Source of the DNA: Thiospirochaeta perfilievii
GTDB taxonomy: Bacteria > Spirochaetota > Spirochaetia > DSM-2461
Assembly (NCBI RefSeq): GCF_008329945.1
Contig: NZ_CP035807.1
Coordinates: forward strand, 3,038,001 to 3,102,000
DNA: 64,000 nt
Direction: 5' to 3'
Shown here: piece by piece, positions 42,803 through 49,648 of the stretch
Layout: the number at the start of each line of letters is the position of its first letter
Numbering within the stretch: position 1 is the first letter of the stretch
Translations under genes and position numbers: made by a program
Notes under the pieces: model-generated
Told to the model about the DNA's origin: nothing
Seen by the model: only the letters and a program-made list of their open reading frames with translations
Databases searched by the model: none

Positions 42803-43566
42803 ATGAGTATTAAATTTAATAGATTAATTAGATTAACAGGGGAAGAGTCATTTTCAAAAATTCAGAATACAAAGGTTATAATTTTTGGAATTGGAGGGGT
42901 TGGAAGTTGGTGTGCTGAATCCTTAATAAGAAGTGGTATAACAAAGTTAACAATAGTTGATTCAGATATTGTCTGTATTACTAATATAAATAGACAACTT
43001 CAAGCAACTATGAATAGCTTAGGTGATGTTAAGGTAGAATCCTTACGGGATAGGCTTCTCTCTATAAATCCTGATGCGGAGATTACTATAGTAGAAAAAT
43101 TCTACAATAGTGATACAAGGGAAGAGTTTAATCTTAATAGTTATGACTATGTTATAGATGCTATAGACTCATTAAGTTCAAAGGTAGAACTAATAGACCA
43201 TGCTCTAAAATCTAATACAACTCTTTTTTCATCCTTTGGTGCAGCATCAAAAATTGATCCAACAAGGGTTCAAGTTAAAGATATTTGGAAAACATACGGC
43301 TGTCCATTAGGTCGTTTAGTTCGTTCTAGGCTAAAAAAAGAGGAATTAAAAAAAAGTTTTTATGTGTTTTTAGTGATGAAGTACTTCCTACACATGATGT
43401 AAATAGTATAACAAAACTAGATTGTGACTGTCCTAAAGTTGATAGTTGCGGGGAAATGAACCTGGAGTTTAGTTCAAAAAAGCAGATAAATGGATCGATA
43501 ACCCATATTACAGGGCTGTTTGGATTTAATTTAGCCGGTTTAGTTATTAAAGATATTATGAAATAA
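42803..43566 (+). CDS. ThiF/TcdA-type E1-like adenylating protein (frameshifted)
   Basis: Restored length 254 residues. FGIGGVGSWCAESLIRSGI is the nucleotide-binding glycine motif, DSDIVCITNINRQ the DxDxxxxSNxNRQ arginine block, and DAIDSLSSKVELI the tRNA cyclic t6A dehydratase (TcdA/CsdL) helix. The continuous frame ends early at 43402. In the -1 frame after the A8 run at 43348-43355, the coding continues CVFSDE..., has a Cys-Cys segment (DCDCPKVDSC) and ends at 43566. One A missing restores it. A8G is also a -1 slippage sequence. TcdA cyclises t6A to ct6A in tRNA. Confidence 0.85.
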
Positions 43567-43628: not shown

Positions 43629-45740
43629 TTACAGTTTAAATAATAGGTCTTCGTAAGAAGGGAATGGCCATAACTCTTTATCAGTTATAGTCTCAAGCTT
43701 ATCTCCAAATGCTCTAACATCAGCCATAGCTTTAATTACTTCAGTTGAGTAGAATTTTGCTTGTTCTAATAGGTTATCTTCAAGGGTTAGAGCTTTAGCT
43801 TTTACTTCATTTAAAACTTTAACAGTTTTTAAAATTCCTGATAAACCATCACTTAACTCTCCTATTAAACTCTCTTGACCTGTTGTGTCTGCTTTTGGTA
43901 AAACTGCTTTAATATCAATTACAGAGTTTGTAAGATTTGAAACATACTCTGTAACAGCAGGAACAATATGTTTAATAGCCATTTCTGATGTAAGATTAGC
44001 CTCAATATTAAGCTGCTGTGAGTAAGCTTCTGAGTAGATAGCAACACGTGCTTCTAACTCAGCTTTTGTAAATACTTTGTGCTTAGTAAATAGTTCAACT
44101 GAGTAATCTTTTGCCAATTCAGGTAGCGAATCAACTGTAGTTTTTAAGTTTGCTAAACCTCTTTTTTCAGCTTCTGGTATCCATTCAGCACCATATCCAT
44201 TTCCATCAAAAATTATTCTGTTATGGTTATTGTAACAATCTTTAACTATTGCTGTAACTTCAGCATTAACATCACTAGCCTTTTCTAATCTAGTAGTATA
44301 TTTTGTTAATATTTCTGCAACACTTGTATTTAATACAACATTAGGACCAGCAATTGATTGATTAGAACCAACCATTCTAAACTCAAACTTGTTAATAGTA
44401 AATGCAAATGGTGATGTTCTATTTCTATCTGTAGCATCCTTAGGAAGAGCAGGAAGAGCATTAACACCCATTTCAAACTTCTCTCCAGCTTTATTTTCGA
44501 TAACTTCACCCTTAGCTATTTTCTCTAAAATAGTTGTAAGTTCCTTACCTAGATAAATAGATATAACAGCAGGAGGAGCTTCGTGTCCACCTAATCTATG
44601 GTCGTTTCCAGCTGAAGCAGCACTCATTCTTAAAAGTGGAGCATAAGTATCTACAGCTTCAATTATTGCAGCTAAGAAAAGTAGGAACTGTGTATTCTCT
44701 TGAGGGTTAGTTCCTGGAGATAAAAGATTAACACCTGTATCTGTAGCTAATGACCAGTTATTGTGTTTACCTGAACCATTTACACCTGCAAATGGTTTTT
44801 CATGCATTAAAGCAACCATACCATGTCTAGATGCTATTCTCTTCATAGCTTCCATTGTTAATTGGTTTCTGTCTGTTGCAACATTTGCACTGTCATATAT
44901 TGGGGCTAACTCAAACTGGTTAGGGGCAACTTCGTTATGTTGTGTTTTTGCACTAATTCCAAGTCTCCATAACTCATGGTTTAGATCCCTCATAAAGTCA
45001 GCAACTCTATCTTTAATTACACCAAAGTAGTGATCGCTCATCTCTTGACCTTTAGAAGGAAGACCTCCAAATACAGTTCGTCCAGCTAATAATAGGTCAG
45101 GCCTTTTTTCAAAATACTCTTTATCTACTAAAAAGTACTCTTGCTCTGGACCTACTGACGCTGTAACTTTTTTAACATCTGTACCTAGAAGCTTTAATAT
45201 TTTTACAGAAGCCTTACTAACAGCTTCCATAGATTTTAGAAGAGGTACTTTTTTATCTAATGCTTCACCTGTATATGAAAAGAATGCTGTTGGAATACAT
45301 AGAGTTAAACCAGTTTTATCCTCTTTTAAGAATGCTGGTGATGAAACATCCCAAGCTGTATAACCCCTTGCTTCATATGTATCTCTTAAACCTCCATTAG
45401 GAAATGAAGATGCATCTGGCTCACCTTTTATTAACTCTTTCCCGGAGAATTCCATCATAATAGAGCCATCTTCATCTGGATCTATAAATGAATCATGCTT
45501 TTCTGCAGTATATCCTGTTAAAGGTTGGAACCAGTGAGTAAAGTGAGTAGCACCTTTAGAAATAGCCCAATCTTTCATTGCTGTTGCAACAACATCAGCA
45601 GTCTCTTTGCTTAGTTCTATCTCACCATTTTGAACCTTAACCATCTCTTTATAGATTGTCTTTGGTAATTTCTCTTTCATTACGATTTCACTAAAACAGT
45701 TAGAACCGTAAATCTCTTCTACGTTTAAAAAGTTACTCAT
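43629..45740 (-). CDS. glnN: Glutamine synthetase type III
   Basis: Glutamate + ammonia + ATP to glutamine, the entry point of assimilated nitrogen. 703 residues, the length of GSIII, much longer than GSI. Family blocks: GSNCFSEIVMKEKLPK, FTHWFQPLTG, KHDSF, GPEQEYFLVDK, KTQHNEVAPNQFELAP, GVNGSGKHNNWS, NRTSPFAFTINKFEFR. Start ATG 45740 has GGGAGA upstream. A sigma-54 promoter at 45799-45814 and an enhancer array at 45935-46018 precede it, so it is likely nitrogen regulated with amtB-glnK. Confidence 0.97.
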   Translation of the reverse strand: MSNFLNVEEIYGSNCFSEIVMKEKLPKTIYKEMVKVQNGEIELSKETADVVATAMKDWAISKGATHFTHWFQPLTGYTAEKHDSFIDPDEDGSIMMEFSGKELIKGEPDASSFPNGGLRDTYEARGYTAWDVSSPAFLKEDKTGLTLCIPTAFFSYTGEALDKKVPLLKSMEAVSKASVKILKLLGTDVKKVTASVGPEQEYFLVDKEYFEKRPDLLLAGRTVFGGLPSKGQEMSDHYFGVIKDRVADFMRDLNHELWRLGISAKTQHNEVAPNQFELAPIYDSANVATDRNQLTMEAMKRIASRHGMVALMHEKPFAGVNGSGKHNNWSLATDTGVNLLSPGTNPQENTQFLLFLAAIIEAVDTYAPLLRMSAASAGNDHRLGGHEAPPAVISIYLGKELTTILEKIAKGEVIENKAGEKFEMGVNALPALPKDATDRNRTSPFAFTINKFEFRMVGSNQSIAGPNVVLNTSVAEILTKYTTRLEKASDVNAEVTAIVKDCYNNHNRIIFDGNGYGAEWIPEAEKRGLANLKTTVDSLPELAKDYSVELFTKHKVFTKAELEARVAIYSEAYSQQLNIEANLTSEMAIKHIVPAVTEYVSNLTNSVIDIKAVLPKADTTGQESLIGELSDGLSGILKTVKVLNEVKAKALTLEDNLLEQAKFYSTEVIKAMADVRAFGDKLETITDKELWPFPSYEDLLFKL

Positions 45741-45798: not shown

Positions 45799-45814
45799 TG
45801 CATAGTCCATGCCA
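45799..45814 (-). promoter_or_regulatory. Sigma-54 promoter of glnN
   Basis: On the minus strand TGGCATGG-ACTA-TGCA, with the invariant GG and GC exactly 10 bases apart. Expected start near 45789, giving a leader of about 48 bases to the glnN ATG at 45740. Confidence 0.85.
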
Positions 45815-45934
45815 ATTATTAAAAAAAACAAGTTTAAAATAATAAAAAACTTTAACTTGTTGTGTAGTAAGGATTTAATTGTGGTTGATAATTTCGAATC
45901 AATAAATACCGATATGCGAAATAAATTATTGTCA

Positions 45935-46018
45935 TACATTTATGTAAGAAAATAATTAAAAATAATTAAAATCCTACATTTATGTTATTTTGTAGTATAA
46001 ATCCAGTACTTTTATGTA
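45935..46018. promoter_or_regulatory. Enhancer-like array upstream of glnN (three TACA-N4-TGTA dyads)
   Basis: TACATTTATGTA at 45935-45946, TACATTTATGTT at 45975-45986 and TACTTTTATGTA at 46007-46018, all with central TTTA. They lie 120-220 bp upstream of the glnN sigma-54 promoter. The same dyad lies upstream of amtB. Together with the promoter and the palindrome at 46028-46055 this accounts for the 332-bp gene-free stretch 45741-46072. Confidence 0.75.
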
Positions 46019-46027
46019 AAACAGTCT

Positions 46028-46055
46028 AAATATCATACATAATTGTATGATATTT
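46028..46055. repeat. 12-bp perfect palindrome between the NifA-like gene and glnN
   Basis: AAATATCATACA (46028-46039) and TGTATGATATTT (46044-46055) around TAAT. Its centre is the same TACA-N4-TGTA dyad as the enhancer sites (TACATAATTGTA), so it may be a fourth, strongest site. It is also 18 bp after the activator stop and could act as a terminator, though only a weak T-run follows. Confidence 0.7.
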
Positions 46056-46072: not shown

Positions 46073-47691
46073 TTAGCCAAAATAGTGGGTATTTTGTAGA
46101 TTATACTTTATAACCCGTGTCCCTATTTGTCTCTCGGTAATTCCAAGGTTCCGTGCCGCTGCAGCTCTATTACCTTTGGTGTTTTTTAAAGTCTCTATTA
46201 ACATCTCTTTTTCTAAAGCTTCGACAGCTTCTTTTAGTGTTGATGTATTTCTTGTTCCACTAGAGTCTGCGGATTGAAGACTTGGGGGTAGGTGATAGCC
46301 ATGAATTACACTATCAGAACTTAATAAAACAGCTCTTTCTATACTGTTTTCTAACTCTCTTACATTCCCTGGCCAATGATATGAGGTGAATAATTCTATT
46401 GCCCCTGATGATATACGTTTAACATTTTTATTGTTTTTTTTATTATACTTCTCTATAAAATGATCACAGAGGGCTATTATATCAGTTTTCCTCTCCCTAA
46501 TAGGGGGAATTATTATAGGGAATACATTTAATCTATAAAATAGGTCTTCTCTAAATACTCCTTTAGTTATTTCCTCTTCAAGGTTTCTATTTGTAGCAGT
46601 GATTATTCTTACATCAACTTTTATTAAGTTTGAACCACCAACCCTCTCTATCTCCCTCTCTTGAAGAACACGTAGAAGTTTTACCTGGATCATAGGTGAA
46701 AGCTCCCCAATCTCATCAAGGAATATGGTTCCTCCATCTGCTAACTCAAAGCGTCCCTTTCTGCTATTAAGTGCTCCTGTAAAGGCGCCTTTTTCATGGC
46801 CAAAAAGTTCACTTTCAATTAAGTTCTCAGGTAGGGCTGCACAGTTTACTTTTATAAAAGGTTTTGAAGCTCTTAATGAGTTGTAGTGAATTGCATGGGC
46901 TACAAGCTCTTTTCCTGTTCCACTTTCACCTCTAATTAAAACTGTCGCTTCACTTTTTGATACTTGATTTATAAGTGTAAATACATCCTGCATAGCTTGG
47001 GATGATCCAATCATATTATCTGGTTTATAAGATGCTTGAAGTTGTTTCTGAAGCCTTTTATTCTCGTCTAACAGCCTTTGATTCTTCTCGATAATACTTT
47101 GACGCATATAAACATGTTTTGCAATCATAGAGCAGATAATTGATAGGAGTTTTAAATCTTCATCAATATCTTCTATGTTTACATAGACTTTATCCATACT
47201 AAATGCACCTATTGTTTCACTACCGTGAAGTACTGGTACACAGATGAAAGATACTCTACTATTGCCCCTAGCTCGCTTTTGTCTAGTTTTATCAAGAAAC
47301 TCTGGAGATGCCTTAATATCTTTTACAACAATTGGATTTCCTGATTGAATAACCATTCCAGTAACACCTTCACCTGGTTTATATGTAGTCTTTTTTGTTG
47401 GTTCTCTGTTAAGTGCACCGACGTTTCAATGGATATTTCATTCGTTTCACGGTTTAGTAGGGCTAGGGTTCCATGTTTCATTCCTAATCTATCAGATAAT
47501 CTTTCAAGTATAGGGCTAATTATTTCATGTAAATCTCGACTTTCATCTAGAGTTTGGCTAATTTCAAATAGTAGGGTCAGTTCTTCTATTTTTTGTCTAT
47601 AATGCTGAGATTGAGTTGGCATACTAGTTATTATGTGATTTTGTGGGAATAATTTCAATATTAATGAATTAATAGGTTGAGCTTTGTGCAT
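46073..47691 (-). CDS. NifA-like sigma-54-dependent transcriptional activator (frameshifted)
   Basis: Restored length 539 residues. Domains: GAF at about 30-190 ([16 protein letters not shown], then [12 protein letters not shown]), AAA+ at about 215-455 with [13 protein letters not shown] (Walker A), GAFTGA (sigma-54 contact loop), [12 protein letters not shown] (Walker B), and a C-terminal Fis-type helix-turn-helix ([20 protein letters not shown]) of the NifA type. The continuous frames stop at 47323 and restart at 47356; a lost T in the run at 47391-47396 explains it, and the -1 frame restores [12 protein letters not shown]. Start ATG 47691 has AAGGAT upstream. It follows glnK and likely activates amtB and glnN. 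Confidence 0.9.
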
Positions 47692-47759: not shown

Positions 47760-48101
47760 TTAACCAATAGCATCTTCACCAGTTTCACCACTTCGGATTC
47801 TGACTGTTTTTTCAATTGGCAATACAAATATTTTCCCATCTCCAATTTGACCAGTTCTAGCACCCCTGATAATTGCATCTATAGTTTTTTCTACAAAACT
47901 ATCATTTACAGCTATCTCTATCCTCATTTTATCAAGTAGGTTAACCTCTGTCTCAACCCCTCTGTATGACTCGGTAAATCCCTTTTGTTGTCCACAACCC
48001 TTTGAATTGGTAATGGATATTTTATGTATGTCATCTTTAAACAACTCTTGTTTTACTTCGTTTAACATGTGTGGCTGAATATATGCAATAATTAATTTCA
48101 T
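47760..48101 (-). CDS. glnK: PII nitrogen regulatory protein GlnK
   Basis: 113 residues. Senses 2-oxoglutarate and ATP/ADP and blocks AmtB when nitrogen is ample. [20 protein letters not shown] at the start, the T-loop [11 protein letters not shown] with Tyr at the uridylylation position, the B-loop [13 protein letters not shown] and C-loop [12 protein letters not shown]. The second half of the T-loop ([10 protein letters not shown]) differs from enterobacterial GlnK, as in many anaerobes. It follows amtB by 13 bp. Confidence 0.96.
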
Positions 48102-48114
48102 TTCTTACTCCTCT

Positions 48115-49428
48115 TTAGACATTATGGAAAATTTGGAATCCTGGATATGATTCTGAACCGTGTTCTGTCATATCAAGCCCTTTAAGCTCTTCTTCTTTTG
48201 AAGCTCTTAACCCTATGGTATATTTGATTCCAAGGAATAGTATACCTGCTGTGGCACATACCCAACCAAAAGCTGTTAATACTCCAACTGCTTGAGCTCC
48301 TAGTAACTTTAATCCTCCACCATAAAAGAATCCTAAAACACCGTCTTCTGGTCTATTTGCAAATAATCCAACAGCTAATGTTCCAAAAGCACCACATACT
48401 CCATGAACTGATATTGCACCTACAGGGTCATCAATGCGTAAAACTCTATCAAAAAAGTTTACAGAAAATACAACAATAATACCTGCTAATAATCCTATAA
48501 TTATTGCACCTGCTGGTGTAACTAAATATGTTCCAGCTGTTATTCCAACTAAACCTGCTAATGCTCCATTTAGAGACATTGAAACATCTGGTTTACCCAT
48601 GGATATCCACATAGTGAACATTGCTGCTATTGCACCTGCAGAAGCTGCTAATGTAGTTGTTACTGCAACGTGGGCAATAGATAAATCTGTTCCAGATAGT
48701 GTTGATCCTGCATTAAACCCAAACCAACCAAACCATAATATAAATACACCTAATGCTGCTAATGGAAGATTGTGACCAGGAATAGCTTTTACTTCAATCT
48801 TACCATCTTTTTTAATATACTTACCAAGTCTAGGTCCTAGGATAATTGCTCCCATTAAAGCAGCCCAACCACCTACAGAGTGAACTATTGTAGAACCAGC
48901 AAAGTCCTGGAATCCCATTTCATATAGAAATCCACCACCCCATGTAAAGCTACCAAAAACTGGGTAAATTATACCTGAAATAACTACAGAGTATACTAAA
49001 TAAGCGTTGAACTTAGTTCTCTCTGCCATAGCACCTGATACAATTGTTGCTGCAGTTGCTGCAAATACTACTTGGAAAATCCAGTCTCTCATTACAGATG
49101 AGTCGTCAGTAGTTAAAAATGTATTAGAACTAAAGCCTCCATATGACTTCCCATACATTATTGCCCAACCTACAGCCCAGAAAATAAGTGCTCCACCTGC
49201 AAAATCCATAAGGTTTTTCATAATGATGTTTCCAGCATTTTTAGGTCTTGTTAGACCTATCTCTACCATTGCAAATCCTGCTTGCATAAAAAATACTAAT
49301 GCGGCTGCTAATGTTAGCCAAATCATATCCATAGAAGATATTAGAAGTTCAATTGAACTAGCATCCTCCGCAAATGCTGAAGTTCCTATACCCAGCAACA
49401 AAAAAATTGGTAAAATAATTTTTTTCAT
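48115..49428 (-). CDS. amtB: Ammonium transporter AmtB
   Basis: About 437 residues. A cleavable signal peptide (MKKIILPIFLLLGIGTSAFA), then eleven membrane helices. Pore motifs: MQAGFAMVEIGLTRPKNAG, VHSVGGWAALMGA and DDPVGAISVHGVCGAFGT, which carry the twin His of the conduction path. I chose the ATG at 49428 because GGAGGAAAATT directly precedes it; an in-frame start at 49446 would overlap the expected transcription start of the sigma-54 promoter. Confidence 0.96.
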   Translation of the reverse strand: MKKIILPIFLLLGIGTSAFAEDASSIELLISSMDMIWLTLAAALVFFMQAGFAMVEIGLTRPKNAGNIIMKNLMDFAGGALIFWAVGWAIMYGKSYGGFSSNTFLTTDDSSVMRDWIFQVVFAATAATIVSGAMAERTKFNAYLVYSVVISGIIYPVFGSFTWGGGFLYEMGFQDFAGSTIVHSVGGWAALMGAIILGPRLGKYIKKDGKIEVKAIPGHNLPLAALGVFILWFGWFGFNAGSTLSGTDLSIAHVAVTTTLAASAGAIAAMFTMWISMGKPDVSMSLNGALAGLVGITAGTYLVTPAGAIIIGLLAGIIVVFSVNFFDRVLRIDDPVGAISVHGVCGAFGTLAVGLFANRPEDGVLGFFYGGGLKLLGAQAVGVLTAFGWVCATAGILFLGIKYTIGLRASKEEELKGLDMTEHGSESYPGFQIFHNV

Positions 49429-49455: not shown

Positions 49456-49471
49456 AGCAACTGCCGTGCCA
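49456..49471 (-). promoter_or_regulatory. Sigma-54 promoter of amtB-glnK
   Basis: On the minus strand TGGCACGG-CAGT-TGCT, nearly identical to the consensus TGGCACG-N4-TTGCW, GG and GC 10 bases apart. Start predicted near 49445, leaving a leader of about 17 bases that is almost all ribosome binding site. Confidence 0.93.
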
Positions 49472-49606
49472 ATTATTGTTAAATGGAGTTTTTTTATAGT
49501 TTATACTGTATCTAATCTGTTTCTGTATAAGGAATTATAAAAAATAATTAGTCTTGGATAATTTTTCTTTGGATAAAAAATTAAGTATTAGCCTTGAACC
49601 ATGTGT

Positions 49607-49648
49607 TACGTTTATGTATGCCAGATATGTTGTTCTTACAAAAATGTA
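49607..49648. promoter_or_regulatory. Enhancer-like pair upstream of amtB (TACR-N4-TGTA)
   Basis: TACGTTTATGTA at 49607-49618 and TACAAAAATGTA at 49637-49648, 30 bp apart and 140-190 bp upstream of the amtB sigma-54 promoter. They match the array upstream of glnN. Confidence 0.75.

Follow-up and report, generated by a model that had tools for sequence, protein, structure and literature searches.

Which protein reads the palindromic motifs upstream of the ammonium transporter and glutamine synthetase genes of Thiospirochaeta perfilievii, and how far beyond this locus does their use extend? The window analyzed here, a stretch of 64,000 nucleotides, carries on the minus strand the ammonium transporter gene amtB (48115-49428; PF00909, TIGR00836), glnK encoding a PII protein (47760-48101; PF00543; one operon with amtB), a frameshifted gene for a NifA-like activator with GAF, AAA+ sigma-54 and Fis-type HTH regions (46073-47691; NifA1 in the following), and glnN, encoding a type III glutamine synthetase (43629-45740; PF12437, PF18318, PF00120). 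Comparison with same-genus copies placed the amtB start at 49428, not 49446.

Both exact GG-N10-GC sigma-54 promoters that a sequence-only reading of the window had proposed were confirmed on the minus strand, namely that of amtB-glnK(-nifA-like) at 49457-49472 (TTGGCACGGCAGTTGC) and that of glnN at 45800-45815 (TTGGCATGGACTATGC). The dyads described there (two upstream of amtB, three and a palindrome upstream of glnN) are also all present. The claim of a shared motif TACA-N4-TGTA is thereby confirmed and proves stronger than first put: all six sites could be located, three of them exact and three with one mismatch each, which had gone unflagged. The putative amtB enhancer dyad 1 (49607-49618, TACGTTTATGTA) reads TACG-N4-TGTA, one base from the motif, and dyad 2 (49637-49648, TACAAAAATGTA) is exact; the two lie 30 bp apart, the modal pair spacing across the class. 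The four putative glnN sites comprise (i) an exact dyad at 45935-45946 (TACATTTATGTA); (ii) a dyad with one mismatch at 45975-45986 (TACATTTATGTT); (iii) another with one mismatch at 46007-46018 (TACTTTTATGTA); and (iv) a long palindrome as distal site at 46028-46055, consisting of a 4-bp core flanked by two 12-bp arms, with an exact copy of the motif (TACATAATTGTA) at its centre (46036-46047). An exact copy occurs at the equivalent relative place in two same-genus loci. Distances from dyad to promoter were 120-232 bp, where 120-260 bp had been given before. In the window, TACR-N4-TGTA had 13 matches compared with 3.07 expected (both-strand counts). Using dinucleotide-Markov resampling, the local chance probability of the amtB dyad set was P = 0.00125, and the glnN set was reached in none of 20,000 resamplings (less than 1 in 20,000).

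The activator is recognizable as a sigma-54 enhancer-binding protein (bEBP) by PF00158, PF02954 (the Fis-type HTH) and the GAFTGA in its sequence. As assembled, its gene is split into two ORFs (47323-47691 and 46073-47356), with the break at an A-run near 47391-47396; the same-genus copies are intact and encode 539-540 aa. A ThiF/TcdA-like gene (43103-43563, plus strand) is likewise found in two frames relative to its same-genus copy. As both genes are split, residual assembly indels are suggested, and the frameshift in NifA1 is probably one of these; a real pseudogene or phase variation is possible. An intact same-genus copy passed the cut-off of the NifA model TIGR01817 (544.6 versus 528.85), whereas the window's own ORFs fell below it because of the frameshift. 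The match of the same-genus copy ended at model position 452 of 534, before the HTH. By its GAF and AAA+ regions the activator is a NifA. The recognition-helix region reads TERQIGTR here and TERIMGLR in most, unlike the TPRQIGYA of an annotated NifA. The genome also encodes RpoN and further sigma-54 activators, two of REC type and one PspF-like.

To see which motif prevails across the class, a motif-blind sample was compiled from 300 bp upstream of 40 promoters in nifA-amtB-glnK-glnN loci, and all 4- and 5-letter dyads were enumerated. This gene cluster recurs across related genomes: a close NifA1 ortholog was detected in most of the 61 genomes searched, and 13 of the 17 genomes without one also lacked amtB. 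Of 27 loci compared across the class, 25 have the sigma-54 promoter upstream of amtB; those upstream of glnN are conserved as well. TACA-N4-TGTA was by far the top dyad (49 occurrences versus 0.37 expected). A position weight matrix from the 40 promoters gave the consensus CCTACA-WWWW-TGTAGG, referred to as the box, with its centre at a median of 146 bp upstream of the -24 element. Pairs of boxes exactly 30 bp apart were found in 28 cases, and with the set reduced to roughly one genome for each genus, a pair spaced by 29-32 bp was present at 17 of 23 promoters. A few amtB promoters (two loci) had no clear box. The classic NifA site TGT-N10-ACA occurred at chance level in the 40 class promoters (3 versus 2.7 expected), full VnfA sites and NtrC sites were absent from class promoters, and NtrC-type GCAC-N7-GTGC, NtcA-type and TnrA/GlnR-type sites showed no clear enrichment there.

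Within the organism's own genome (3.7 Mb), the dyad alone was not enriched, with 91 and 88 matches per strand compared with 123 and 104 for the reversed pattern. The sequence-only reading had named such genome-wide commonness as grounds for abandoning the motif; this is true of the dyad alone but false for the dyad in combination with a sigma-54 promoter. A strict sigma-54 pattern matched 16 times in the genome (reversed control: 0 and 1), and in the genome scan for dyads upstream of such sites, which had been suggested as a check, exact boxes were confined to nitrogen promoters. They were located at most 400 bp upstream of 4 of the 16 sites, belonging to glnN, amtB, a second amtB (amtB2) and a nifE-like gene. 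The nifH promoter had two one-mismatch boxes, and no exact box was detected at the other 11 of the 16 promoters (Hsp20, Clp, PspA and others). A search of this genome for two exact dyads at a distance of 12-40 bp gave none, since in a pair usually one of the two is degenerate. Target genes outside the window were named from reading translations, except those tested by BLAST or Pfam. We also noted that the other strict sigma-54 promoters precede genes for Hsp20-like small heat-shock proteins, a Clp protein, PspA/IM30 homologs and a small RpoD-like sigma factor, which suggests a sigma-54 stress regulon.

Across 148 genomes, we searched for a compound pattern, i.e. the box followed by TGGCAYR-N5-TGC at a distance of 72-102 or 103-133 bp. 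In total, 97 matches were obtained (39 and 58, respectively), compared with 0 and 1 for the reversed controls. A match was present in 53 of 89 activator-bearing genomes but in only 5 of 59 activator-free ones (Fisher, 7.6e-11). The pattern is strict and its spacing limited; an exact match was missing in 36 of the 89. Where the downstream gene could be identified, it was in most cases a nitrogen gene. Among 60 loci fetched and analyzed by BLAST, the downstream gene was glnN in 21, amtB in 10, and glnK, nifH and nifE in one each. Other downstream genes encoded type I glutamine synthetase, glutamate synthase, a NifV-like (HMGL-like) enzyme and solute-binding proteins; representatives of all these groups but the NifV-like one were assigned by Pfam, the remainder by reading. 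Genes not obviously linked to nitrogen followed 6 of 30 matches in one annotated set and about 9 of 30 in the other. In two genomes of one genus, the box and a sigma-54 promoter precede a gene for a porin-like outer-membrane protein, a possible extra regulon member. In three genomes, a sigma-54 promoter precedes the gene for a small membrane protein of a similar kind, by eye resembling phosphatidate cytidylyltransferase/dolichol kinase; two of these promoters come with a box of the type TACAC..GTGTA.

When loci in other Spirochaetota classes were picked by the activator HTH only, a box preceding a sigma-54 site was found at 12 of 14, in most cases together with a second box at a distance of 29-31 bp. 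These loci and the co-occurrence of box and activator across genomes point to the NifA-like activator as the likely binder, as had been proposed. That the dyads behave as enhancer sites is likewise supported.

The DNA site itself resembles those of known regulators of alternative nitrogenases. AnfA of Rhodobacter capsulatus recognizes TAC-N6-GTA, as EMSA and experiments with mutated promoters showed (Demtroder et al. 2020, PMC7294313). VnfA1 of Azotobacter vinelandii (Woodley 1996; PMC9542535) recognizes GT(T/A)C-N6-GTAC, according to ChIP-seq usually with two sites per promoter (PMC9542535). In the AnfA system, also found in other alphaproteobacteria (PMC7294313), the core TAC-N6-GTA is identical to that of the box, a sigma-54 promoter is likewise preceded by two sites, and the activator likewise has GAF, AAA+ and Fis-type HTH regions. 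The system differs in its target, the Fe-only nitrogenase operon there as opposed to genes for ammonium uptake, glutamine synthetase and glutamate synthase and nif genes here, while the box described here is longer (CCTACA-WWWW-TGTAGG) with pairs spaced by 30 bp. Similarly, TAC-N6-GTA lies within the VnfA1 site GTAC-N6-GTAC, which usually occurs twice per promoter, but the outer bases there are GTAC...GTAC rather than CTAC...GTAG, full VnfA sites are absent here, and the VnfA1 targets are vanadium nitrogenase genes. Furthermore, AnfA and VnfA carry an N-terminal cysteine pair which NifA1 lacks: no CxxC-to-Cx5C pair was found in any of 41 NifA1 sequences, of which a few lack part of the N-terminus. 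With NifA (TIGR01817), NifA1 shares the aligned GAF and AAA+ regions, but the HTH lies beyond the end of the match, and the class promoters show no enrichment of TGT-N10-ACA. The sequence-only reading had already noted a spacing different from the classic NifA site, and the difference goes further, since the left half-site is TACA and not TGT and the core equals the AnfA consensus. Because this core equals the AnfA site and is contained in that of VnfA, we regard the box as a putative AnfA/VnfA-type enhancer serving ammonium assimilation, the type being assigned from the DNA site. A plasmid search for AnfA/VnfA or NifA1-type HTHs either gave no match or listed matches of which none was annotated as AnfA/VnfA.

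Two further systems may use the same box. In Leptospira, i.e. in the same phylum, EbpA is a GAF-type sigma-54 activator of amtB, acting with RpoN, that binds the amtB upstream region (Hu et al. 2017, summarised in PMC12655853); in contrast to NifA1, it is said to have two GAF domains and to be FhlA-like. Its site may be the same box. DVU1949 of Desulfovibrio vulgaris is a one-component sigma-54 activator with a predicted regulon in nitrogen metabolism and transport (Kazakov et al. 2015, PMC4641369), which is also what is proposed for NifA1, and its motif, too, may be the box. No earlier report of the box in spirochaetes was found in the literature searched, the coverage of which was partial.

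Taken at the level of sequence, the dyads are very probably paired enhancer sites for the NifA-like sigma-54 activator NifA1, with AnfA/VnfA-type specificity. Their spacing within pairs of 30 bp, or about three turns of the helix, and their position about 80-230 bp upstream of nitrogen sigma-54 promoters support this assignment, as do their restriction to nitrogen promoters among the strict sigma-54 sites of this genome and their co-occurrence with NifA1 across the class. Dimers of the NifA1 Fis-type HTH would bind each box, and two or more helically phased boxes would nucleate an AAA+ hexamer. Under nitrogen shortage, DNA looping would bring this hexamer to the amtB and glnN promoters, where it would remodel the sigma-54 polymerase; GlnK/PII is a plausible partner in signalling. 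Since the activator gene follows amtB-glnK on the same strand in this genus, its transcription probably also starts from the amtB promoter, and positive feedback is likely.

The arrangement is not the complete, self-contained nitrogen circuit that had been envisaged. The same box is also found elsewhere in the genome, at amtB2 and nifE and in degenerate form at nifH; NifA1 is split by a frameshift as assembled, and a second activator is associated with the box. This NifA-type paralog (NifA2) is encoded beside the nif genes, and the box occurs upstream of nearby sigma-54 promoters; probably NifA2 reads it there. An N-terminal cysteine pair (CxxC or Cx4C) in 8 of 10 NifA2 sequences is a candidate redox or metal sensor. 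The boxes could be read mainly by NifA2 or by mixed NifA1-NifA2 hexamers, leaving NifA1 a lesser role. Besides the boxes near NifA2, this idea draws on the relatedness of the NifA2 and NifA1 HTHs, on the functional mixed complexes formed by paralogous VnfA proteins in A. vinelandii (PMC9542535), and on the broken NifA1 ORF in this assembly. We nevertheless consider it improbable, as many genomes of the class with boxes at amtB or glnN have a single such activator, of NifA1 type and beside those genes, and NifA1 is intact in same-genus genomes with the same boxes.

Even less probable, to a degree that leaves it little room, is a reading in which an unrelated nitrogen regulator, of TetR, GntR or CRP type or else an NtrC homolog of REC type, uses the boxes as operators. 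A dimeric repressor would also fit palindromes of such length, and the two REC-type activators in the genome would provide a candidate. However, at 80-230 bp upstream of sigma-54 promoters the boxes are too distant for simple repression, they are paired in helical phase, they co-occur with the NifA1 HTH across genomes and in loci picked by this HTH alone, and sites of NtrC, NtcA and TnrA/GlnR type were not clearly enriched. Finally, that the boxes are chance AT-rich palindromes, with 46028-46055 as transcription terminator of the activator gene, would agree with the unremarkable genome-wide frequency of the dyad alone and with a palindrome directly after the activator stop codon (gap of 18 bp), but no long T-run adjoins it, and chance as a general account is refuted by the resampling probabilities and by the conservation, pairing and promoter association of the box across genomes, so that hardly any likelihood is left to it. 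The palindrome could have a second role.

The NifA1 reading bears on nitrogen control more widely. We see an even chance that nitrogen assimilation in much of Spirochaetota is under the general control of a NifA-lineage activator with AnfA/VnfA-type specificity, in the role that NtrC has in proteobacteria, and that related activators act likewise in several other phyla; as the nif paralog would read the same box, TAC-N6-GTA may also be older or more widespread in this lineage than TGT-N10-ACA. General nitrogen control would thereby be tied by the box to the alternative-nitrogenase branch of regulators, and the sharing of one address by two paralogs at nif and gln/amt promoters becomes testable. 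Annotation pipelines can label such proteins 'nif-specific activator NifA', although many adjoin ammonium-assimilation genes and their DNA address is not that of NifA. For spirochaetes and other poorly studied phyla, the box offers a route to nitrogen regulons from genome sequence. The compound scan was weak in other phyla, with 7 matches in 32 genomes versus 1 for the control, not all of them at nitrogen genes. The HTH subclass HLPP[ST]LQ...LG[IL][TS]ERIMGLR is also present in Hydrogenedentota, Desulfobacterota, Planctomycetota, Myxococcota, Bacteroidota, Chlorobium and others, and in other phyla CTAC-N6-GTAG was the top dyad near sigma-54 promoters.
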